The notes under the pieces: generated by a model
What the model was told of the DNA's origin: nothing
The model's input: the letters and a program-made list of their open reading frames with translations, nothing else
Databases searched by the model: none
Virus record (IMG/VR): IMGVR_UViG_3300048591_000101
Location: 1-31,319 of that record
Origin: a virus
Length of the DNA stretch: 31,319 bases
Reading direction: 5' to 3' (one strand)
Shown: positions 21,662 through 31,319 of the stretch, in pieces
Layout of the letters: each line of letters starts with the position of its first letter
Numbering within the stretch: the first letter of the stretch is position 1
Program-made: the position numbers and the translations under genes

Positions 21662-23140
21662 TCAATGCAACCGGGCTATCCGCCCTTCCTCGGCCTCGTC
21701 GCGTTGCCACGGATCATAGTCCTGCACTGCGGTAATACCAAACTCTTTCTGTGCCCGCGCCAACCGCCCACGCGCACGACCCTCTATCGGATACGCAAAC
21801 GTCAACGCCAACGCATCTCCCCAGTCAGGCGACCGACCCAACCGCGCCTTGATCTGATCCTTGTCCTCAATCATCAGCTTGTCTGCCCGAAACGTATACG
21901 TCGGCTCCGTCAGGTCAGCAATCAACTCCGGTATGTTCGGCAACCACCCGCCACCCTTCACCCACTCCGCCATCAGAAACCACATCTCAGCACGCTTGTT
22001 CAAATACTTCCCAGTGTTCATCGCCCGACCGCTGAACGGCACACCTATCGGCGACCGACCCAACCGACGCAAATTGTCGATCCACCCACTCCCGTACCCG
22101 CCCGTGTCGTCCACGAAGCACGCATCAGCGTCCACCGCACCCCACTCCAGCGACACATGCGCCGCACCACTCACCGAGTCCATGTTCCGCCACAGCCTCG
22201 GCTCAAATACCTTCCGACCCTGGCGGCGCATCAGCACGCTCGCGTCATCACCAAACCGCGCCACGTCTACACCCATCACGACAGCATCACCCTCCCATAC
22301 CAGCGGCTCATACCGGCGCGATACCGCCTCCATCACATCCCCCAACCCCAACAAGCTGTTCAAACTCGACGGCGGAAACCGCCCAAATACGTTCACCAGC
22401 ACCCACGGGTTCTCCGCCCCGTACATCCCAATCTGCTGTCGCGCCCACTCCGCACTCACACGACTCGACCTCAACGGACTGTCTGGATCCCCCGTTATCT
22501 CCGTCACATGCCACAGCGCCCGATCCCGCGTCGCCGCCCGATACAACGGACCACTCAGCATCGTCGGATTACCAGCCTGTACAATGTGACCCTCAATGCA
22601 CGACGACAACCCAGCCTCAGCCGTCGCCATCACCGCGTCCGGTATGCCCCCGCTCTCGTCCAACAAGAACATGATGTAATCCGCGTGCAAACCCGCCAAC
22701 GTATCCGCCTGCGCCTTCGGATCACCACTCTTGGGCCACGTCCTCGCACTCATGAACCACGTCTCGGGATACTGCTTGCTGCTGATCCGTGTCTTGGTCC
22801 ACGAAAATAACTCCGTCAGCAATACCGACTTCTGCTGCCACTTCGCCATCTCCGCCCACAAATTGTCCGACAAGTTATCCCCAGTCACGCTCGTCGCCGC
22901 TATCTTCGGAAATGGCCGCGTCAACAAAAAATTCCACGCCAACCACGACAGCAACGCTGTCTTACCAGGTCCTTTGCACGCCTGCATCGCCAACCGCTGA
23001 TTCCCAGGAAATGCCTCCAACACCCTCACCTGCCACGCATCAGGCTCTACCCCAAATAACTCCCGCACCATCAGCGCCGGACTATCCTTCCAACGCGGCA
23101 ACCGCTCCGCAAACGCCGCCTGTACGTCAGCCGTTAACAC
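21662..23140 (-). CDS. terL: Terminase large subunit (packaging ATPase-nuclease)
   Basis: A 492-aa protein starts with GTG at 23140, with GAGGG about seven bases upstream. The ATPase domain has Walker A ACKGPGKT (residues 54-61) and Walker B FLLDES (158-163, with catalytic E162). The RNase H-like nuclease has D292 in GVDVARFGDD, D344/D345 in CFVDDTGG and D442 in SPDWGDAL. It drives DNA translocation into the prohead and cuts the concatemer. Coding-strand composition is unusual: the plus strand here is markedly C-rich (30 C versus 11 G in 22081-22140), and codons often end in G (GCG, CGG, ACG), unlike the ejection gene. This suggests a different recombination history. Confidence 0.93.
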   Translation of the reverse strand: MLTADVQAAFAERLPRWKDSPALMVRELFGVEPDAWQVRVLEAFPGNQRLAMQACKGPGKTALLSWLAWNFLLTRPFPKIAATSVTGDNLSDNLWAEMAKWQQKSVLLTELFSWTKTRISSKQYPETWFMSARTWPKSGDPKAQADTLAGLHADYIMFLLDESGGIPDAVMATAEAGLSSCIEGHIVQAGNPTMLSGPLYRAATRDRALWHVTEITGDPDSPLRSSRVSAEWARQQIGMYGAENPWVLVNVFGRFPPSSLNSLLGLGDVMEAVSRRYEPLVWEGDAVVMGVDVARFGDDASVLMRRQGRKVFEPRLWRNMDSVSGAAHVSLEWGAVDADACFVDDTGGYGSGWIDNLRRLGRSPIGVPFSGRAMNTGKYLNKRAEMWFLMAEWVKGGGWLPNIPELIADLTEPTYTFRADKLMIEDKDQIKARLGRSPDWGDALALTFAYPIEGRARGRLARAQKEFGITAVQDYDPWQRDEAEEGRIARLH

Positions 23141-23225: not shown

Positions 23226-23846
23226 CTACCCGCGCTCATGGGACTCCGGCGAAAACCCCGGGTCGCCCGGTGTCGGCGGAAGGGGACCCATCTGCTGCGC
23301 GGTTGCGCCGGCAGGCGCTGCATCATGCTCGATGGTCGCGCCTTGCTCGATGGCACGCATAGCCTGAGGTGCTGCTAACCCTGCTGCCTGCAGGACGGCC
23401 AGCCAGTCGAGCGCGTCAGTAGTCGCGGCCTGCTTGGGCGGGTCGTAGGTGCTGCGGTTGCGAACTCGCATGAGGAATTGCCTAGTTTCGATCCTGAGAC
23501 GGTCGCGTGTCGTGTCGGCATCGTCTGCGCCGTCTGCTATCTGCACCAGCTCATCCGACCAGGCATCAGCCTGTAGTTCTAGCGCCTGCTGATACCGGCC
23601 GGCGAACCCGGCCACATCGTCGACCGCCCAGCGACGGACTGTCGCCGCACGCGGATATCCCGGCTGCTGGCATATGTCGGCCAGCGTCCGACCGTCTGCG
23701 AGCTGGTCGAGGATCGCGCCTGCCACGTCTGCGCTGTACGCGGTACTGACCGGAGCCGGGTCCATTGGGCAGTCGCCCGGCGGTCGCTCGATCGCGTCAA
23801 GCACGCGGGACGGCGGTGCATAGTCTAATCCTGGTGTCTGTCGCAT
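23226..23846 (-). CDS. terS: Terminase small subunit (Sf6 type)
   Basis: The product is 206 aa from ATG 23846; a start at 23765 (MDPAPVST) is also possible. The core LADGRTLADICQQPGYPRAATVRRWAV is a helix-turn-helix as in Sf6-like small terminases. It is followed by FAGRYQQALELQADAWSDELVQIADGADD and RLRIETRQFLMRVRNRSTYDPPKQ, the usual oligomerisation helices. The last 70 residues (Ala/Pro-rich, ending PGFSPESHERG) are longer than typical and probably disordered. It recognises the packaging site and recruits the large subunit. It is the first late gene, after the central noncoding region. Confidence 0.85.
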   Translation of the reverse strand: MRQTPGLDYAPPSRVLDAIERPPGDCPMDPAPVSTAYSADVAGAILDQLADGRTLADICQQPGYPRAATVRRWAVDDVAGFAGRYQQALELQADAWSDELVQIADGADDADTTRDRLRIETRQFLMRVRNRSTYDPPKQAATTDALDWLAVLQAAGLAAPQAMRAIEQGATIEHDAAPAGATAQQMGPLPPTPGDPGFSPESHERG

Positions 23847-24030
23847 GGCCGCGACCTTAGCACGGCGCCGCCAGACAGCCTATATGCCTGCCTGCTGATA
23901 GATGGCCTGTAGGCCCTGCCCTATGCCTGCCGGAGCCGTGACTGTGCGTTAGCGGCGATTGTGCGCGGTTCGCCTATTCGCTTGCAGGAATCGTGCCAAA
24001 TTGGCGCTATTTGGACGCCATTTTAGGTCG

Positions 24031-24224
24031 TTGTGCAGTGCAACTTTACATAATCTGTCAATGTTAGATAACACACGTAACCATGCGGGTTCTAACGTTC
24101 TCTGACGGTGACAAAAACAGGGTCCAGGCCACGCCCAGTATGGCTCTAACGCTCTTACTCTACTTTTCCAAACATTTTGCGTAAATGTGGTGCTGCTGTA
24201 TGCAGACCCTATTGTGCAGTGCAA
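24031..24224 (+). repeat. Direct repeat TTGTGCAGTGCAA, two copies
   Basis: An exact 13-mer occurs at 24031-24043 and 24212-24224, once just inside the left end and once near the centre of the large inverted repeat. The related GTTGTGCA is also present in inverse orientation at 24362-24369. The copies could be protein-binding sites; their relation to the larger structure is unclear. Confidence 0.7.
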
Positions 24225-24358
24225 GACAATATATATCAGTAATAGGGTAATAGAGAGTAAGAGCGTTAGGGCTATATGTGGCAAGGGTTTGAGGCTGATT
24301 TCGTCACCGTTAGATGACGTTAGAACCCGCGTCAATGCTGGGCCTCTCTAACAGAGAT

Positions 24359-24367
24359 TTATGCACA
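24359..24367 (+). promoter_or_regulatory. Consensus DnaA box TTATGCACA
   Basis: TTATGCACA fits the DnaA consensus TTATNCACA exactly. A related ATATGCACATAAC follows at 24378-24390, and TTATGCGCA (one mismatch) lies on the minus strand at 24442-24450. A cluster beside a large inverted repeat and near the primase gene is compatible with a replication origin. DnaA boxes also occur by chance. Confidence 0.45.
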
Positions 24368-24456
24368 ACGACCCAGAATATGCACATAACGGTCATTTTC
24401 CTCTTGCACCGCAAAAACGTGCTGCAACGCCGAAAACCGTATGCGCATAATCCAAA

Positions 24457-24470
24457 TTGACCTAGATCAA
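24457..24470. promoter_or_regulatory. FNR/ANR/DNR-like palindrome TTGACCTAGATCAA
   Basis: The 14-mer differs at one position from the FNR-type consensus TTGAT-N4-ATCAA and sits within AATTGA-N6-TCAATT, a perfect inverted repeat (24455-24472). A possible -10 TATTAC (24491-24496) lies about 27 bp downstream, placing the site centre near -40 from the implied start. This is the class II activation geometry. Regulation by a host oxygen- or nitric-oxide-sensing factor is inference. Confidence 0.4.
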
Positions 24471-24533
24471 TTCCCCGCTGCATTGCGGAATATTACGGTT
24501 TGGTAATGTTTGCCATATTGGCGTCATCGCATG

Positions 24534-24562
24534 TTGACACGTGATAACAATGCCCCTATTGT
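24534..24562 (+). promoter_or_regulatory. Sigma70 promoter of the 115-aa gene
   Basis: TTGACA (24534-24539), a 17-bp spacer and TATTGT (24557-24562) form a near-consensus promoter 34 bp before the ATG. The -35 is embedded in TTGACACGT, a 9-mer also present at the divergent promoter at 30658-30666, so both may respond to the same phage repressor. Confidence 0.75.
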
Positions 24563-24595
24563 CTACCCATCGACAACCACAAAAGGAGATAAATC

Positions 24596-24943
24596 ATGAG
24601 TACACCTAACAACGCCCGACATGTGGCATGGCATGTAATCCTGCACATGCAGCACAATGGATGGTGGCTGCACTCGGTCCATGACGGCAAAAAAACCGTC
24701 AATCTCGCGAGGCTCTCGCCGCATGAAGCCCGGTTGCGGGCGATGGAAACGATCTTCAGCCTGGACGATGCATCGCTGCGCTTCCTGCGCCCGCAGCCGG
24801 GCGACACCGAAACAGTCGTCCGCCACGTGTTGATGATCCCCAGCAACGGCGCGAAAATCGTCAGCGATTGGACCTGTGCCAAAGACGATAGTGACGGATT
24901 CGGAGCATGCATGCATGCTGCGCTGGCGATGTATGCAGCATGA
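24596..24943 (+). CDS. Unknown 115-aa protein in a moron-like cassette
   Basis: This is the only rightward gene in the interior of the window. The start at 24596 is set by a strong AAAAGGAGAT site and a consensus promoter upstream; an intrinsic terminator (25078-25105) closes the unit. The product begins MSTPNNARHVAWHVILHMQHNGWW and is rich in His and Trp near the start. It has LARLSPHEARLRAMETIFSL in the middle, two cysteines late (SDWTCAKDD, FGACMHAALAMY), and no signal peptide or membrane segment. I do not recognise the family. An autonomous promoter-gene-terminator unit in antisense to the surrounding operons is how phage morons are arranged; these often encode host-modifying or anti-defence functions. 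That is inference. Confidence 0.75.
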   Translation: MSTPNNARHVAWHVILHMQHNGWWLHSVHDGKKTVNLARLSPHEARLRAMETIFSLDDASLRFLRPQPGDTETVVRHVLMIPSNGAKIVSDWTCAKDDSDGFGACMHAALAMYAA

Positions 24944-25077
24944 TCGCTCGCACAGTGGCGCGCACACTAGCGATTATTGAGACGGATCAGCGCAGCCAAG
25001 CAGCCTAGCGGGCAGCGGGTTAGCAATAGCCTGCTGCACGATGAACCACTAACCAACCGCAGCCAGACCCACCCTTA

Positions 25078-25105
25078 AACCCGGCCTAGCGCCGGGTTAT
25101 TTTTT
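25078..25105 (+). terminator. Intrinsic terminator, plus strand, perhaps bidirectional
   Basis: An 8-bp stem AACCCGGC/GCCGGGTT (25078-25085 and 25091-25098) with a 5-nt loop is followed by ATTTTTT on the plus strand. It ends transcription from the 115-aa gene. The hairpin overlaps the TAA stop of the primase gene, and read leftward it is followed by TTTAAG, so it may also weakly terminate the early operon. Confidence 0.85.
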
Positions 25106-27148
25106 GCCGCGCTTCCAGGCCCGCTTCGTTGATCCGTCAAGGTAGACGGTTGTCGACTTGTACCCCATGCGCCGCAGGATCGACGCCACGCGTAGCTGGA
25201 TCGCCCGGTCCCATTGGGATGCTTTCATACCGAGTGCATCCATACAGCCCGCATAATCGACCGTATCGCGGCCTTGCAGCCATGACTTAAGCAGGGTTTC
25301 CCATTCGTCAATTTCAAACCGCTTCTCTACTTCCGCCGCCGCCAGGTCTGCATCAATATCCCACCAGGACCGGCCAGCCTTGTATAGCGCGACTGCTTCC
25401 GCAAAGAGCTGGTTCCGATTGTCGGACAGATATTCTAGATTTACTTGCGCGGCTTCGACCGGCCAGAATCTGCGCCCGCCGGTGTCGTCGGTTTGCCACG
25501 TGTCGCGGTTGGTCGTGCCCGCGAACACGGCTCGGCGCGGAAAGTCCTGCACCCGGCGTCCGTAGCTTGGCCGATAGCGGTCTATTCTGGTCGTGATGAT
25601 TCCCTTGATCCGCTCGACATCGGCCCGCTTGAAGGCGTGCAGCTCGGATATTTCGACCAGCCAGGCACCGGCCAGTGATTGAAGGAAATCCTTACTCTGG
25701 ATCGACTCGTGACACTCGCTGTACCACTTGCCGCCCAGAATGCGCAGCGCCTGGGTTTTGCCGACACCTTGAGAGCCTTCAAAGATTGGCATTGTGTCTA
25801 CTTGGCAACCGCCCTGATAGGCGCGGGCAACCATTGACGTAAGCCAGCATCGACCGACCGCCCAAGTGTATTTGTTACTTGGCGCGCCGAAGGCATCTGG
25901 CAGCATCATCTCTAGGCGGGGTTCCTTGTCCCATTTCAAGGTTTCGAGCCATTCCATAACTTCATTCGTGGTGCGCCGCCGTGCCAGTATCTGTAGCGCA
26001 TCCTCAATAGGGCTGGCCCGGACTTCAGCCAGCCCGCACTCCCGCTGCATGGTCAGGTTAAGCCTGAGCGTATCGGCGTCCGTCCACTTGTAATAGGCGT
26101 CTGGGGTATCTGCTCCCCACGAGCTGAATACGGTGCCGTGGAAATCGTCGTAGTAGAACCTGCCGAGAAACGGCCTGTGACCTTCTAGCACCCGCATGAC
26201 ATTATCCAGCGTGCCCTTCGCGTGCCCTACCTTGCCGACCAGGTTAAGCCGCTGGTGCAGCTCGGCAATGCTTAGGGGCGCATCATCGCCCACCGGATCG
26301 CACACGGGCGCACGGACGGCACCAGATGGCTCGACAACGCCGAGCGATGGCGGGCGCTTGGATACCTGCACGCCTGCCGTGGCTGCGCTGTAGGGCGTCG
26401 CTAAAGCCGCCTTGACGATACCGGCCAACCCTTCCCGCGTGCCGCCAGTCGCCAGCCAGTCAGATATATCGCCCTTCTCTGGCAGACCGGGCAGCAGGGC
26501 AACGCAGACCTTGCTTGCGGTCGGGAGCAGCAGCTTGGCGACCTGCGCCGCGTGGACCTGCCCGGGCGCGTCATTGTCGGGGATGATGCAGACTTGGGCA
26601 CCGGCAAAGATGGGCGTCCATTCTTCGCGCCACTTGCCTGCCCCGCCAGCATTGCACGTTGCAACACAGTTGAGACCGTAGAGCGCATCAACGTCTTTCT
26701 CACCCTCGACGATCAGGACGGTACGGTTAGCCGCTATCCCGGCGCGTAACTCCGGCAGCCGGTAGGGTACGTGCCGCACGCCGACTAGCGACCAGAGCCA
26801 GCCGCCCTTGCCATCGGGTTGCCGCTGCTTGAAGCCTTTAGGCTCGTAGCGCAGCGCCTGGAACAGCACCGCGCCTTGCTCGTCAGTGTAGTTGTATTCC
26901 GCCACAATCCGGGGACGTGACGCGGGGATGATGGCGACCGGTGGCGCGGGCCAAAGGCGCATGGCCTTCAGCGCCTCAACGACCTGGGATTGCTCGCAGC
27001 CCGCGTGACACTTGACCAGCAGTTTGCCGTCTTTGTCGGTAAGGCTCAGTGAGGCTTGGTTATCGTCGTGTGATGGGCACCTTGCGGTGCTATATGTGCC
27101 GTGGTGCGTGGCACCTCCGAGAGATTCAGCGACTTGTCTAGCATCCAT
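25097..27148 (-). CDS. DNA primase-helicase with VapE-type ATPase domain
   Basis: The 683-aa product joins three parts. Residues 1-60 carry a CHC2-like zinc site: C24-P-S-H27 with C47-H-A-G-C51. Residues about 140-235 are a Toprim domain: VEGEKDVDAL (147-156), DND (191-193) and KGD (225-227). Residues about 400-640 are a virulence-associated-E (VapE)-type P-loop ATPase: EGSQGVGKT (457-465), WLVEISEL (496-503), GTTN (544-547) and an arginine finger in GGRRFWP (557-563). It would prime and unwind phage DNA. The ATG at 27148 has only a weak CGGA upstream. A 102-bp gap separates it from the nuclease gene, holding the GGTTCTAACGT site. Confidence 0.9.
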   Translation of the reverse strand: MDARQVAESLGGATHHGTYSTARCPSHDDNQASLSLTDKDGKLLVKCHAGCEQSQVVEALKAMRLWPAPPVAIIPASRPRIVAEYNYTDEQGAVLFQALRYEPKGFKQRQPDGKGGWLWSLVGVRHVPYRLPELRAGIAANRTVLIVEGEKDVDALYGLNCVATCNAGGAGKWREEWTPIFAGAQVCIIPDNDAPGQVHAAQVAKLLLPTASKVCVALLPGLPEKGDISDWLATGGTREGLAGIVKAALATPYSAATAGVQVSKRPPSLGVVEPSGAVRAPVCDPVGDDAPLSIAELHQRLNLVGKVGHAKGTLDNVMRVLEGHRPFLGRFYYDDFHGTVFSSWGADTPDAYYKWTDADTLRLNLTMQRECGLAEVRASPIEDALQILARRRTTNEVMEWLETLKWDKEPRLEMMLPDAFGAPSNKYTWAVGRCWLTSMVARAYQGGCQVDTMPIFEGSQGVGKTQALRILGGKWYSECHESIQSKDFLQSLAGAWLVEISELHAFKRADVERIKGIITTRIDRYRPSYGRRVQDFPRRAVFAGTTNRDTWQTDDTGGRRFWPVEAAQVNLEYLSDNRNQLFAEAVALYKAGRSWWDIDADLAAAEVEKRFEIDEWETLLKSWLQGRDTVDYAGCMDALGMKASQWDRAIQLRVASILRRMGYKSTTVYLDGSTKRAWKRGKK

Positions 27149-27157
27149 TGTTATTCC

Positions 27158-27175
27158 GTGGTTCTAACGTGGTTC
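27158..27175. promoter_or_regulatory. Direct repeat and GGTTCTAACGT site before primase gene
   Basis: GTGGTTC occurs at 27158-27164 and 27169-27175, an 11-bp period (about one helical turn). Between and within them lies GGTTCTAACGT (27160-27170), identical to an 11-mer in the left outer arm of the central inverted repeat (24088-24098) and, inverted, in the right arm (24317-24327). The position, ten bases upstream of the primase start codon, suits an autoregulatory site or iteron. Confidence 0.5.
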
Positions 27176-27250: not shown

Positions 27251-27607
27251 TTAACCCTCCAACATTGCCAGCGCTTCATCTGCGCTAGTGACGACACCGG
27301 CAAGCCCGCCCGCAGCCTGCACGGCTTTGATAAATCTCACTTGGTCGCCGGTCGGTTTGCCGCCCTTGCGCTTGACCTCGAGCGCGGCGAACTGCGCGAT
27401 AGTCTGCCCGACCATCTCCGGCGTGATGGTGACCGGCCGCCAGCCGATCAAGTCACTACTCCCGACACAAAGACCATAGCGCACTATTCGCCCGTCCCGG
27501 TCGTAGAGTTGGCCGACATTGTTGCGAAATATGCGCCCGCCGGCATTGCTCCATGCAAGGCGCACGTCTGCAACGATAGCCGCCTCACTTTGCTTTCCCG
27601 ATGGCAT
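27251..27607 (-). CDS. VRR-NUC domain nuclease
   Basis: The 118-aa product shows the minimal VRR-NUC fold of the PD-(D/E)XK group: an N-terminal helix (SEAAIVADVRLAW), a GGRIFRNNVG strand, VGSSDLIGW with the acidic residue D52, EVKRKGGK with E77 and K79, and a C-terminal Q89 in TGDQVRFI. Stand-alone phage VRR-NUC proteins cleave branched or flap DNA and are often encoded beside helicases and primases, as here. The start (ATG 27607) lies 23 bp inside the 57-aa gene, with AGGA upstream. Confidence 0.9.
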   Translation of the reverse strand: MPSGKQSEAAIVADVRLAWSNAGGRIFRNNVGQLYDRDGRIVRYGLCVGSSDLIGWRPVTITPEMVGQTIAQFAALEVKRKGGKPTGDQVRFIKAVQAAGGLAGVVTSADEALAMLEG

Positions 27608-27758
27608 CGCGCATTTCCTGTAGCTTGTTCAGTTCCGGCGCGTCAGGTGCGTAGAATTTCAGCGCACCTTCCAGCATTCTTATCATGTCCCGCTGTAGCG
27701 CGAGCAGTCCCGGTTGCGTGACGATGGCAGTAGGTTGGATTCTCACCGGGGTATTCAC
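27585..27758 (-). CDS. 57-aa hypothetical protein between helicase and nuclease
   Basis: The GTG start at 27758 overlaps the helicase stop as GTGA, the signature of this operon. The product reads MNTPVRIQPTAIVTQPGLLA and then helices with LQRDMIRMLEGALKFYAPDAPE and LQEMRDAIGKAK. It has no cysteine or known motif. It may be a small partner of the helicase or nuclease. Coding status rests on the exact overlap and on filling the whole gap between two certain genes. Confidence 0.65.
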   Translation of the reverse strand: MNTPVRIQPTAIVTQPGLLALQRDMIRMLEGALKFYAPDAPELNKLQEMRDAIGKAK

Positions 27759-29140
27759 GCTACTACCCTCCGACGCCTTGCGTCAAATACATGCTTGGCC
27801 CAACCGACCGCGTTGCGGAACCCGCGCCGCTTGCCGACCTCGATGAGCTGCTCCAGCGTTACCGCCCGCCCCTGCTCTCTCGCTCGCTCCCGGCGCAGCA
27901 CAGAAGCCTCCACTTCCTCAAGCGTGCCTTCCTGCTGCTCGACCTTCCGCGCCTTCACAACGACCGGCGTACCGCATTGTGGGCAGGCTGACAGGCTAAC
28001 GCGCAGCACGGCGAAGCATTGCTTGCACAGGCGCAGCGGTAGCGGCTCGTCCTCGCTGGCCTTGCGCTTGCGGGCGTCGTCGCCGTCTAGCGACCAGTCG
28101 CGATCATCGTCCGGCAGCCCGTGGCGGAACGTGTTGCCCGCGTGGTCTAGAATTAATGCGCGTTCCTTACCGGGAGAGACGCGCAAGACGCGACCGATCT
28201 GTTGCAGATGCAGGCCCATGCTCATCGTCGGGCGGAGTAGGATGCCAACGTGCAGCCCAGGAAGATCAAACCCCTCGCTTATCAAGTCGCAACTCGTCAG
28301 GACATTGATGCGCCCCGCCTTGAAGTCGGCAACGACGCTGCGCCGCACGTCACGATCCATGCCGCCGTCAATGCTGACTGCGCGATAGCCCGCGTCTCGG
28401 AACTGCTGTGCAACGTGCCCCGCGTGTTCGACACTGACGCAAAACGCCACCGCTGGCAGGCCATCAGCAAGGCGCTTGTAGTGGCCGATCACATCCCCGG
28501 TGATGGATGGCTTATCGACCCGCTGGCCCAGTTCGCCGCGCACGAAGTCGCCGCCGCGCTTGTGCATCCCGGTCATATCAACACTCTTGGGCGCGAAGAT
28601 GCGATAGTCAGCAAGCGATCCCATGTCGATCAATTCGCGCACAGTCGGGCCGAGTACCATCTCATCGAACGACTGGCGCAGACCCTCGCCAGATAGCCGG
28701 TACGGTGTCGCCGTCACACCGAGGACAAACGCCTTCGGGCACGCGGCCATGACCTTGCCCCATGTAGACCCGCCCGTGGCGTGATGCGCTTCGTCTACTA
28801 CCAACAAGTCAGGCGCAGGCCGCTCGGCAAGCTGTCTCACCAGCGTAAACACGCTCGCAACGACCACGCGCACCGATGGCGGCGCACGACGACCACGCGC
28901 CAGCACACCATGCGCGACGTTGAACGCGCTCAGGGTGTCTGAGACTTGCTCCACCAACTCGTCACGATGGACCAGGACAGTGATGCGCTTGCCCTTCGCA
29001 GCAACGCGGGATGCCATATGAGCAAACGTGATTGTCTTGCCGCTGCCGGTCGGGCTAACCGCCAGCACGCGCTTGTGCCGTCGCATAGCCGCCTTGATGT
29101 CGGCAACCAGCGCGTCTTGGTATGGGCGTAGCGTTATCAC
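27755..29140 (-). CDS. DEAD/DEAH-box helicase, SSL2/UvsW-like
   Basis: I choose GTG at 29140 (VITLRPYQDALVADI), which overlaps the previous stop as GTGA and matches the usual family start; ATG 29164 or GTG 29194 would add 8 or 18 residues. The product is 461 aa. Superfamily 2 motifs are SPTGSGKT (29-36), DEAH (116-119), TAT (143-145), LISEGFDLPG and QIGRVLR (314-320). A four-cysteine zinc ribbon follows (C372, C375, C386, C389), then a charged helical tail. Such phage helicases remodel forks and recombination intermediates. The neighbouring VRR-NUC nuclease supports a joint role. Confidence 0.9.
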   Translation of the reverse strand: MITLRPYQDALVADIKAAMRRHKRVLAVSPTGSGKTITFAHMASRVAAKGKRITVLVHRDELVEQVSDTLSAFNVAHGVLARGRRAPPSVRVVVASVFTLVRQLAERPAPDLLVVDEAHHATGGSTWGKVMAACPKAFVLGVTATPYRLSGEGLRQSFDEMVLGPTVRELIDMGSLADYRIFAPKSVDMTGMHKRGGDFVRGELGQRVDKPSITGDVIGHYKRLADGLPAVAFCVSVEHAGHVAQQFRDAGYRAVSIDGGMDRDVRRSVVADFKAGRINVLTSCDLISEGFDLPGLHVGILLRPTMSMGLHLQQIGRVLRVSPGKERALILDHAGNTFRHGLPDDDRDWSLDGDDARKRKASEDEPLPLRLCKQCFAVLRVSLSACPQCGTPVVVKARKVEQQEGTLEEVEASVLRRERAREQGRAVTLEQLIEVGKRRGFRNAVGWAKHVFDARRRRVVA

Positions 29141-29319
29141 AGACCCAGCGCCCGCCTGATCCATGACTTGCGCTGCTCCGGTGCCAACCCGCACGACCGA
29201 GCGCGGTACGCCTCCAGTGCGAGCCGGTTCTTGTGCTCAATGTACGACTCCGGCTTTGGCTGCTCGATGTCGCGGAACTCTGCGCTGCGGTCATGCAGGT
29301 ATTTTTTGTAGTCCGTCAT
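29137..29319 (-). CDS. 60-aa hypothetical early protein
   Basis: ATG 29319 overlaps the HTH gene stop as ATGA, with GGGAGAG upstream. A GTG at 29325 is possible but less fitting. The product, MTDYKKYLHDRSAEFRDIE onward, is highly charged and helical, ending EQRKSWIRRALGL. It is not recognised. It lies directly before the helicase, whose start it is coupled to by GTGA. Confidence 0.65.
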   Translation of the reverse strand: MTDYKKYLHDRSAEFRDIEQPKPESYIEHKNRLALEAYRARSCGLAPEQRKSWIRRALGL

Positions 29320-30231: not shown

Positions 30232-30398
30232 CGTTCATCCCTCATCGCATCAGCAATAGCCTCTGCCAAGTCTCTCTCGGCAAGAGATCGCGTGTTGACG
30301 CCTGGATTGTCGATATGGCTTTTGAGTGACCAGCCGGTAGGCCGCAGGTTTTCCCACCAGCGTTTAGCAAGCAGCGCAATGCGTGCGGTGTCTTTCAT
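30228..30398 (-). CDS. 56-aa hypothetical early protein
   Basis: ATG 30398 overlaps the Cro-like stop as ATGA. The product begins MKDTARIALLAKRWWENLRPTGWSLKSHIDNPGVNT and ends in an acidic helix (SLAERDLAEAIADAMRDER). The W-W-x-x-L-x-P-x-G-W-S-L pattern suggests a folded small domain. It is not recognised. It shares its first four codons (MKD.) with the next gene, perhaps by chance. Confidence 0.65.
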   Translation of the reverse strand: MKDTARIALLAKRWWENLRPTGWSLKSHIDNPGVNTRSLAERDLAEAIADAMRDER

Positions 30399-30622
30399 GG
30401 CTGATCCCCGAACACGTCTGGCCGCAGATCGGCCTTGCTGATTCCGGTGACAGCCTCGACGCGCTGGCACAGTTCCGGCGCGACGGGCCGACCGCGCATC
30501 CAGTTCCAGACGCGCTGACGGTCTACCTTGAGCCGCTTGGCGAGCTTTGCCTGCCCGCCATTCGTTTCAACGTAAAGCTCCAGCAGCTTTGTGACACGTC
30601 GTATCTGTTCGTTGTTCATCAT
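30395..30622 (-). CDS. Cro/YdaS-like transcriptional regulator
   Basis: The start is ATG 30622 (MMNNEQIRRVTKLLELY), seven bases after AGGAGG; the frame is open to 30664 but lacks such support. The 75-aa product contains the HTH GGQAKLAKRLKVDRQRVWNWMRGR (residues 22-45) and ends ISKADLRPDVFG, the typical tail of Cro/YdaS-type repressors of lambdoid phages. It probably binds the TTGACACGTTGTCAA palindrome 36 bp upstream and so controls both itself and the divergent gene. It is the first gene of the early operon; no CI partner is visible in the window. Confidence 0.85.
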   Translation of the reverse strand: MMNNEQIRRVTKLLELYVETNGGQAKLAKRLKVDRQRVWNWMRGRPVAPELCQRVEAVTGISKADLRPDVFGDQP

Positions 30623-30643
30623 GTGAAGTCCTCCTGAAAATTT

Positions 30644-30672
30644 ATTGTCACCCCCCCTTGACACGTTGTCAA
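30644..30672 (-). promoter_or_regulatory. Leftward early promoter
   Basis: On the minus strand TTGACA (30667-30672), a 17-bp spacer and GACAAT (30644-30649) precede the Cro-like gene. The start would be near 30637, giving a very short leader that already contains AGGAGG (30630-30635). Confidence 0.6.
30658..30672. promoter_or_regulatory. Palindromic operator shared by divergent promoters
   Basis: TTGACA-CGT-TGTCAA is a perfect inverted repeat with 6-bp arms and a 3-bp centre. Each arm is the -35 box of one of two opposing promoters, so a dimeric repressor bound here would shut both. The neighbouring Cro-like protein is the obvious candidate. Confidence 0.65.
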
Positions 30673-30686
30673 CAGGGGAATACTGT
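30658..30686 (+). promoter_or_regulatory. Rightward promoter of the Ala-repeat gene
   Basis: TTGACA (30658-30663), a 17-bp spacer and TACTGT (30681-30686) lie 32 bp before the ATG at 30718; GGAG sits just upstream of that ATG as ribosome binding site. Confidence 0.7.
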
Positions 30687-30717
30687 CGCTACATCAGCAA
30701 CCACTACGGAGAACCAC

Positions 30718-31319
30718 ATGATAACCACCACGCTCAACGCCATACGTGAACACTCACCATGCGCCGATGGCTGGACGAAGCTGCTAGACCATCTTGGCAA
30801 GACCAAAGCTGACGATGAACCATTGCCGCTACTGACCGTACTCGATAGCAACGGTTTGGATGACACGCTCTGGTGTCTCCGCACCCGACCAGACCTTGAC
30901 AGGCTCTGGAGGCTCTACGCAGTCTGGTGCGCTCGACAGGTACAACACCTGATGACCGATCAGAGCAGCATCGACGCGCTTGATGTGGCCGAGCGATACG
31001 ATAACGGCGAGGCGACCGATGCTGAGTTGGCCGCAGCGAGGGCCGCAGCGAGGGCCGCAGCGAGTGCCGCAGCGAGTGTCGCAGCGAGGGCCGCAGCGTT
31101 GGCCGCAGCGATGGCCACAGCGAGTGCCACAGCGAGTGCCCCAGCGAGTTACGCAGTGAGGGCCGCAGCGTGGGACGCAGCGAGTTACGCAGCGAGTGCC
31201 GCAGCGAGGGCCGCAGCGTGGGACGCAGCGAGTGCCGCAGCGAGTTACGCAGCGAGATACGCAGCGAGGGCCGCAGCGTTGGCCGCAGCGAGGGCCGCAG
31301 CGAGGGACGCACCGAGGTC
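30718..31319 (+). CDS. Phage protein with Ala-rich tetrapeptide repeats, partial at right edge
   Basis: At least 200 codons run from ATG 30718 off the right edge with no stop. Residues 1-100 form a compact domain with SPCADGWTKLLDHLGKTKADDEPLPLL, SNGLDDTLWCLR and YAVWCARQVQHLM. The same features are known to me from a widespread family of small phage proteins with Ala-rich tails; its function is not established. From about residue 103 the protein is built of tetrapeptides A-A-(R/S/W/L)-(A/D/Y) coded by 12-bp units near gcagcgagggcc. This should be a long alanine helix with one periodic face. It is controlled from the shared operator with the Cro-like gene. Confidence 0.8.
   Translation, partial: MITTTLNAIREHSPCADGWTKLLDHLGKTKADDEPLPLLTVLDSNGLDDTLWCLRTRPDLDRLWRLYAVWCARQVQHLMTDQSSIDALDVAERYDNGEATDAELAAARAAARAAASAAASVAARAAALAAAMATASATASAPASYAVRAAAWDAASYAASAAARAAAWDAASAAASYAARYAARAAALAAARAAARDAPR
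31027..31319 (+). repeat. 12-bp tandem repeat array encoding A-A-x-x tetrapeptides
   Basis: About 24 units of 12 bp, based on GCAGCG(A/T)(G/T)(G/T)GCC, run to the end of the window. Alanine codons are nearly invariant (GCA GCG), while the variable codon pair changes among AGG, AGT, TGG, TTG and GCC, GAC, TAC. Longer blocks recur, for example AAWDAAS twice. Length changes by slippage are expected. Confidence 0.92.

Follow-up and report, generated by a model that had tools for sequence, protein, structure and literature searches.

A long inverted repeat on the 3′ side of a VapE-type primase-helicase gene as a probable DNA replication origin of a short-tailed phage

The locus and its genomic neighborhood

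The DNA analyzed is a short-tailed phage contig from IMG/VR of 31,319 bases, which in its full length is termed the window. The inverted repeat described here is located in a 749 bp intergenic region. The genes and regions concerned are as follows.

21662–23140, minus strand: large terminase subunit
23226–23846, minus strand: small terminase subunit (terS), Sf6 type
23847–24595 (749 bp), no strand: intergenic region with the proposed origin, from terS (leftward) to a rightward accessory gene, as delimited by open reading frames and alignment with two relatives
24596–24943, plus strand: accessory gene, function unassigned, between the proposed origin and the primase gene
25097–27148, minus strand: primase-helicase with a VapE-like domain, the proposed initiator
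27251–27607, leftward: VRR-NUC nuclease
27755–29194, leftward: DEAD/SNF2-type helicase
30395–30664, leftward: YdaS-like HTH protein

The leftward genes follow the order YdaS-like HTH protein, DEAD/SNF2-type helicase, VRR-NUC nuclease, primase-helicase, terS, large terminase, head-tail adaptor and head/tail genes. The repeat is on the 3′ side of the primase-helicase gene, at 0.7–1.1 kb from the stop codon in the window and about 2.5 kb in the related contig L005, with rightward accessory genes in between. The accessory gene at 24596–24943 is swapped for other rightward genes in L005 and in a second relative, L008. The location appears to be a hot spot for cargo genes: L008:1298–2890 and L005:1851–3870 hold several rightward genes and positions 24596–25096 of the window one unrelated gene, in phages that are near-identical.

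The primase-helicase

The helicase domain of the protein encoded at 25097–27148 matches PDB 7pds, annotated as "Similar to D. nodosus vapE" (E-value = 1.9e-71), and the primase-helicase matches PF05272 (E-value = 1.6e-71). The N-terminal half matches DnaG/Toprim primases. A structural model of the whole protein had a pLDDT of 55.6 and was set aside. The C-terminal domain modelled alone has a pLDDT of 80; its last 60–70 residues (about 615–683) are near 90 and display the order of elements of a winged helix. Fold matches of this domain are weak, with a best E-value of 0.013, and are mostly to winged-helix proteins.

The inverted repeat

The intergenic region displays a long inverted repeat at 24020–24379, where the first-pass annotation had placed it. 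The repeat score of 44 is far beyond chance, as scores are 13–17 when the whole window is shuffled 30 times with dinucleotides preserved. The main ungapped pairing, 24062–24161 with 24254–24353, extends over 100 nt, is 72% complementary and is centered at 24207.5 on a core of 92 nt. The outer pair, 24020–24037 with 24362–24379, is matched at 16 of 18 positions and has its center at 24199.5; the 16-nt asymmetry reported for it previously is real and represents a shift of the center by 8 nt. The elements of the repeat are listed below.

24020–24037, no strand: outer left arm, contains GGTCGTTGTGCA (repeat search and alignment)
24062–24161, no strand: left arm, with block A (24085–24112), a 26-bp spacer and block B (24139–24161)
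24062 (−), 24091 (+), 24101 (+), 24145 (+): left-arm copies of YCTRACR
24162–24253, no strand: core, 92 bp, candidate unwinding region, AT content 62% versus about 42% for the window
24212–24224: second TTGTGCAGTGCAA, inside the core
24254–24353, no strand: right arm, the mirror of the left, with block B′, a 26-bp spacer containing GCAAGGGTTTGAGGC, and block A′
24264 (−), 24308 (−), 24318 (−), 24347 (+): right-arm copies of YCTRACR
24362–24379, no strand: outer right arm, overlapping TTATGCACA (24359–24367)

The blocks are composed of one repeated motif, YCTRACR, which had escaped the first reading of the sequence. Eight of the 45 copies in the whole window are within 292 bp and form four exactly mirrored pairs. 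The inverted 8-mer pair statistic is 24 for this region and at most 7 in the rest of the window; the comparable values are 30 and 6 in L008, and 26 and 6 in L005.

The predicted fold of the plus-strand RNA has an energy of −160.5 kcal/mol (z = −10.8 relative to shuffles), that of the minus-strand RNA −146.5 kcal/mol (z = −9.2), and the fold as DNA −81 (z = −9.9). The comparison of both strands with shuffled controls, which the first-pass annotation had proposed, thus bears out an unusual stability on the plus and minus strands but not a preference for one of them. Since all three fold unusually well, folding energy alone does not distinguish RNA from DNA or one strand from the other.

Conservation in close relatives

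Two distinct homologues of the region were identified. One is that of L008, which is 84% identical over about 737 bp; the other, 88% identical, is the same in L004, L005 and L006. The repeat is in register in both, with scores of 36 (L008) and 41 (L004). The arms are 68%–73% identical across all three homologues and the nearest flanks 89%–98%; a 43-bp segment at 24019–24061 is 98% identical in all three. The sequence GCGGGTTCTAACG and its mirror CGTTAGAACCCGC are 100% conserved in the window, L008 and L004. Block B of L008 is altered in parallel in both arms (GGCCTGGAGC / GGCCTGAGC), and L008 carries two exact copies of a 20-bp version, CGTTCTCTAACGGTGACAGA, in direct orientation and 247 bp apart. 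The presence of such sites in both orientations points to protein binding.

Of 100 arm positions, 67 are paired in L008 and 70 in L004, where 47 and 58 are expected if the same substitutions fell randomly. Random-substitution simulations reached the observed complementarity in 0 of 2000 and 1 of 2000 cases in the two relatives. This is due in part to the unchanged blocks. L008 has 17 pairs broken and 12 gained, and L004 has 9 broken and 7 gained; pairs are thus broken and restored in similar numbers and complementarity stays at 67 and 70. Relatives that lack the blocks, or changes that disrupt pairing on both strands no less often than they preserve it, had been named beforehand as evidence against a paired element; the blocks are kept, however single changes do break pairs.

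L007, a near relative whose terminase is 87% identical, has scattered inverted motifs and no long contiguous repeat (score 15), on a contig without the helicase gene. Searches of phage and plasmid collections found no DNA similar to the element, and a scan of bacterial genomes gave just terminase relatives of 50%–67% identity, in none of which the intergenic region was recognized.

Mirrored arrays behind distant helicase relatives

In three terminase relatives (L027, L028 and L055) a related primase gene lies just before terS, and the stretch that separates the two genes has short repeats in either orientation. These repeats are of unrelated sequence, e.g. TGTACAC, GGATAG and AAGGTAGC. L075, with a more distant type of primase, has such repeats there as well. 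Because of these repeats, relatives of the primase-helicase itself were collected, giving a sample of 78 loci that encode distant relatives (helicases 27%–40% identical), of which 74 were usable for the inverted 8-mer maximum.

In 45 of the 74 loci the maximum of inverted 8-mer pairs falls on the 3′ side of the helicase gene, within 1 kb of its stop codon. The 3′ flank exceeds the 5′ flank, which has nothing comparable (Wilcoxon p about 1e-10; the sample includes some near-identical loci, so p-values overstate independence). At least 15 inverted pairs are present in 39 of 77 segments directly behind the helicase gene, compared with 1 of 111 other intergenic segments of the same loci. Long ungapped inverted repeats with a score of at least 18 are found in 28 of 78 3′ flanks versus 1 of 328 upstream 1-kb segments. 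Five named phages were examined, i.e. Pseudomonas vB_Pae_U5, Marinobacter PS3, Yersinia YeP5, APSE-2 and Bacteroides F4, and each has an array behind its helicase gene.

The repeat sequences differ between most loci, however the mirrored layout is the same. The strongest long repeats mostly have a core of 81–97 bp (L177, 92; L168, 97; L193, 89; L164, 92; L175, 85; L159, 81), and that of the window is 92 bp. Exceptions are L199 (Marinobacter phage PS3) with a core of 24 and L166 with 69. The cleanest example of the layout is at L177:6008–6259, where a VapE helicase gene is followed by a perfect inverted repeat of 80/80 bp with a 92-bp core. The sequence GGCTGAAACCCGC (at most one mismatch) occurs 8 times in 46.6 kb of 3′ flanks and 0 times in 383 kb upstream. 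The arrays of L168, L159, L164, L166, L193 and L007, otherwise unrelated, have it or a close form between their iteron clusters. The match is exact in L007.

Comparison with known replication origins

The Rep helicases of SaPIs bind iterons directly downstream of their own genes, apparently as two hexamers (PMC7581432), and PICI origins have two sets of iterons that flank an AT-rich region after pri-rep (PMC6092414). The window resembles these systems in its VapE-type helicase, in putative sites downstream of the helicase gene, though at a distance from it, and in two repeat sets around an AT-richer region, i.e. the eight mirrored YCTRACR copies, which are degenerate, on both sides of the 62% AT core. 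It differs in that SaPIs and PICIs are satellites, whereas the window represents a full phage with cargo genes between the helicase gene and the array, and in that its repeats are degenerate and mirrored about a 92-bp core.

The origin of pRN1, located 3′ of its rep gene, is a stem-loop whose sequence is poorly conserved but whose pairing is kept, and a similar stem-loop has been noted or proposed for Bordetella phage BIP-1 (PMC4234260). The window likewise has a long sequence capable of forming a stem-loop 3′ of its primase-helicase gene, less conserved than its flanks and with pairing kept despite sequence change. However pRN1 has an archaeo-eukaryotic primase domain, where the N-terminal matches of the window protein are to DnaG/Toprim primases, and its stem-loop of about 100 bp has a 21-nt stem and no iterons. 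In contrast, the arms in the window are 100 nt long and are made of repeated motifs.

The P4 alpha protein consists of a Toprim-type primase fused to a helicase, and its winged-helix domain binds repeats (PMC4234260). The P4 system, i.e. alpha with ori and crr, is like the window in combining a Toprim-type primase, to which the N-terminal half of the window protein has matches, with a helicase. P4 uses two separate cis sites. By general description, its repeat sequences and their order differ from those of the window.

A probable replication origin

The position of the element, its repeats, their mirror symmetry, their upkeep in relatives, the recurrence of arrays behind homologous genes and the helicase homology point to the inverted repeat being the phage's DNA replication origin, a mirrored cluster of putative primase-helicase binding sites. 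The probability of this reading is put at roughly 0.7. A VapE-type primase-helicase, the putative cognate protein, is encoded by the same replicon as the array. An origin hairpin was among the functions suggested by the first-pass annotation, and that suggestion stands in substance, in the form of a mirrored array of putative initiator sites 3′ of the primase-helicase gene. By inference, the element would be of a kind already known, the iteron origin of a primase-helicase.

The primase-helicase would bind the repeated sites (core YCTRACR in blocks A and B), probably by way of its C-terminal winged-helix domain. With the sites mirrored on two sides of the AT-richer 92-bp core, two helicase assemblies, one per arm, may unwind the core and be loaded in facing orientation, which would give bidirectional replication. 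The near-perfect inverted repeat would then be a consequence of the arrangement of the sites as mirror images, and a cruciform may or may not form besides.

Several observations weigh against an origin. The array is behind accessory genes in the window lineage rather than directly behind the helicase gene, to which it is adjacent in the distant relatives, and the repeats of the window are more degenerate than in most of the distant cases. L007 is without the long contiguous repeat, and GGCTGAAACCCGC is matched only distantly in the window, with 4 mismatches. Moreover, about half of the sampled helicase loci have no clear array.

Alternative explanations

An operator array whose regulator would control the two divergent operons (terS and accessory), a terminase packaging site (cos or pac) and a structured RNA are all less likely than a replication origin. 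Since the region borders terS, a packaging or operator role keeps some weight: the repeat is directly upstream of terS, between divergent genes, and has conserved flanks that include the TTGACCTAGATCAA box at 24457–24470. Such a role is nevertheless unlikely. Arrays also follow the helicase gene where the next gene is not recognized as terS; of 30 array loci, just 6 have a recognizable terS downstream, with a model built from the terS family of the window alone. Two terminase relatives without a related primase gene nearby (L012 and L018) have no excess of repeats upstream of terS, and operators are normally shorter.

A long structured RNA of either strand, e.g. the leader of a rightward accessory or late operon that acts through its hairpin, is quite improbable. 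Both strands do fold far better than shuffles, arm complementarity is maintained in the relatives, and in these the rightward genes begin beyond the repeat. However any mirrored DNA array would give the same folding signal, and homologous helicase genes have obvious iteron arrays of unrelated sequence at the same position. A rightward-transcribed RNA had been proposed on account of the mismatches in the two main blocks. These are five, as reported, and four of them are transitions, all G-T on the plus strand. The gapped mirrored arms of the window alone have 9 G-T and 5 A-C mismatches, but with L008 and L004 included the counts are 21 and 18 (p = 0.75) and the bias toward the plus strand is gone. 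Four transitions in the main blocks are too small a sample, and there is no strand bias left to explain. The proposal finds no support in Rfam either, where no family matches anywhere in the window at the gathering threshold, and both RNA strands and the DNA fold with about equally unusual stability. A long hairpin with G-U-like mismatches thus need not be RNA.

A relic, i.e. an inverted duplication or a decayed mobile element of which the ends are left, can be given hardly any weight: the outer pair resembles short terminal inverted repeats, but the element is at the same site and register in three homologues, its eight motif copies are exactly mirrored, copies are absent from phage and plasmid collections, and complementarity is upheld rather than decaying. 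From the earlier suggestion of a former inverted duplication with preserved binding blocks, the binding blocks are likely; the decay is contradicted by the 67 and 70 paired positions against 47 and 58. No empty site flanked by a target duplication was seen among the sequences compared. A 17-base pattern resembling transposon ends is also present in three other viral contigs, L084, L085 and L087, which are otherwise unlike the intergenic region; it is at about chance level and was rejected. The inverted repeats upstream of terL in L097, L099 and L095 were likewise discarded, as they look like unrelated coding or dispersed repeats.

Wider occurrence of the layout

Beyond the replication origin proposed for the window, it is suggested tentatively, at less than even odds, that phages with VapE-type primase-helicases may have a general plan of origin in common, in which a mirror-image iteron array behind the helicase gene has a nearly fixed core of about 80–97 bp and arms that stay complementary despite fast sequence turnover. 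The need for two facing helicase rings, or for an extruded cruciform, would keep the arms complementary. The literature searched, which had a limited reach into subscription journals, does not describe the recurring mirrored layout with its core near 90 bp. Few metagenomic phages have a known origin; if the arrays are origins, the sequence by itself would be enough to locate them in many phages with VapE helicases. The DNA-binding domains of the helicases and their repeats would then form a ready set of pairs for the co-evolution of initiator and origin specificity.

Additional features of the window

The sequence TTATGCACA at 24359–24367 fits the DnaA-box consensus TTWTNCACA. It is the one match in the window, where 1.2 are expected by chance, and it was dropped as a signal. 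GC skew shows no sign change at the element and is uninformative.

The sequence TTGACCTAGATCAA at 24457–24470 is unchanged in L008 and L004. It fits TTGAYNNNNRTCAA, the FNR/Anr box pattern, which has no other match in the window.

At 30980–31319 there are long repeats of GCAGCGAG-type units, which are alanine-rich in the rightward frame and run off the contig end. A perfect dyad, TTGACACGTTGTCAA, is located at 30640–30718 between the leftward YdaS-like gene and a rightward reading frame, and this is likely an early control region. Upstream of the primase-helicase start, at a distance of about 10 bp (27159–27169), the sequence TGGTTCTAACG differs by one mismatch from the array block GGGTTCTAACG, and self-regulation by the initiator is possible there.
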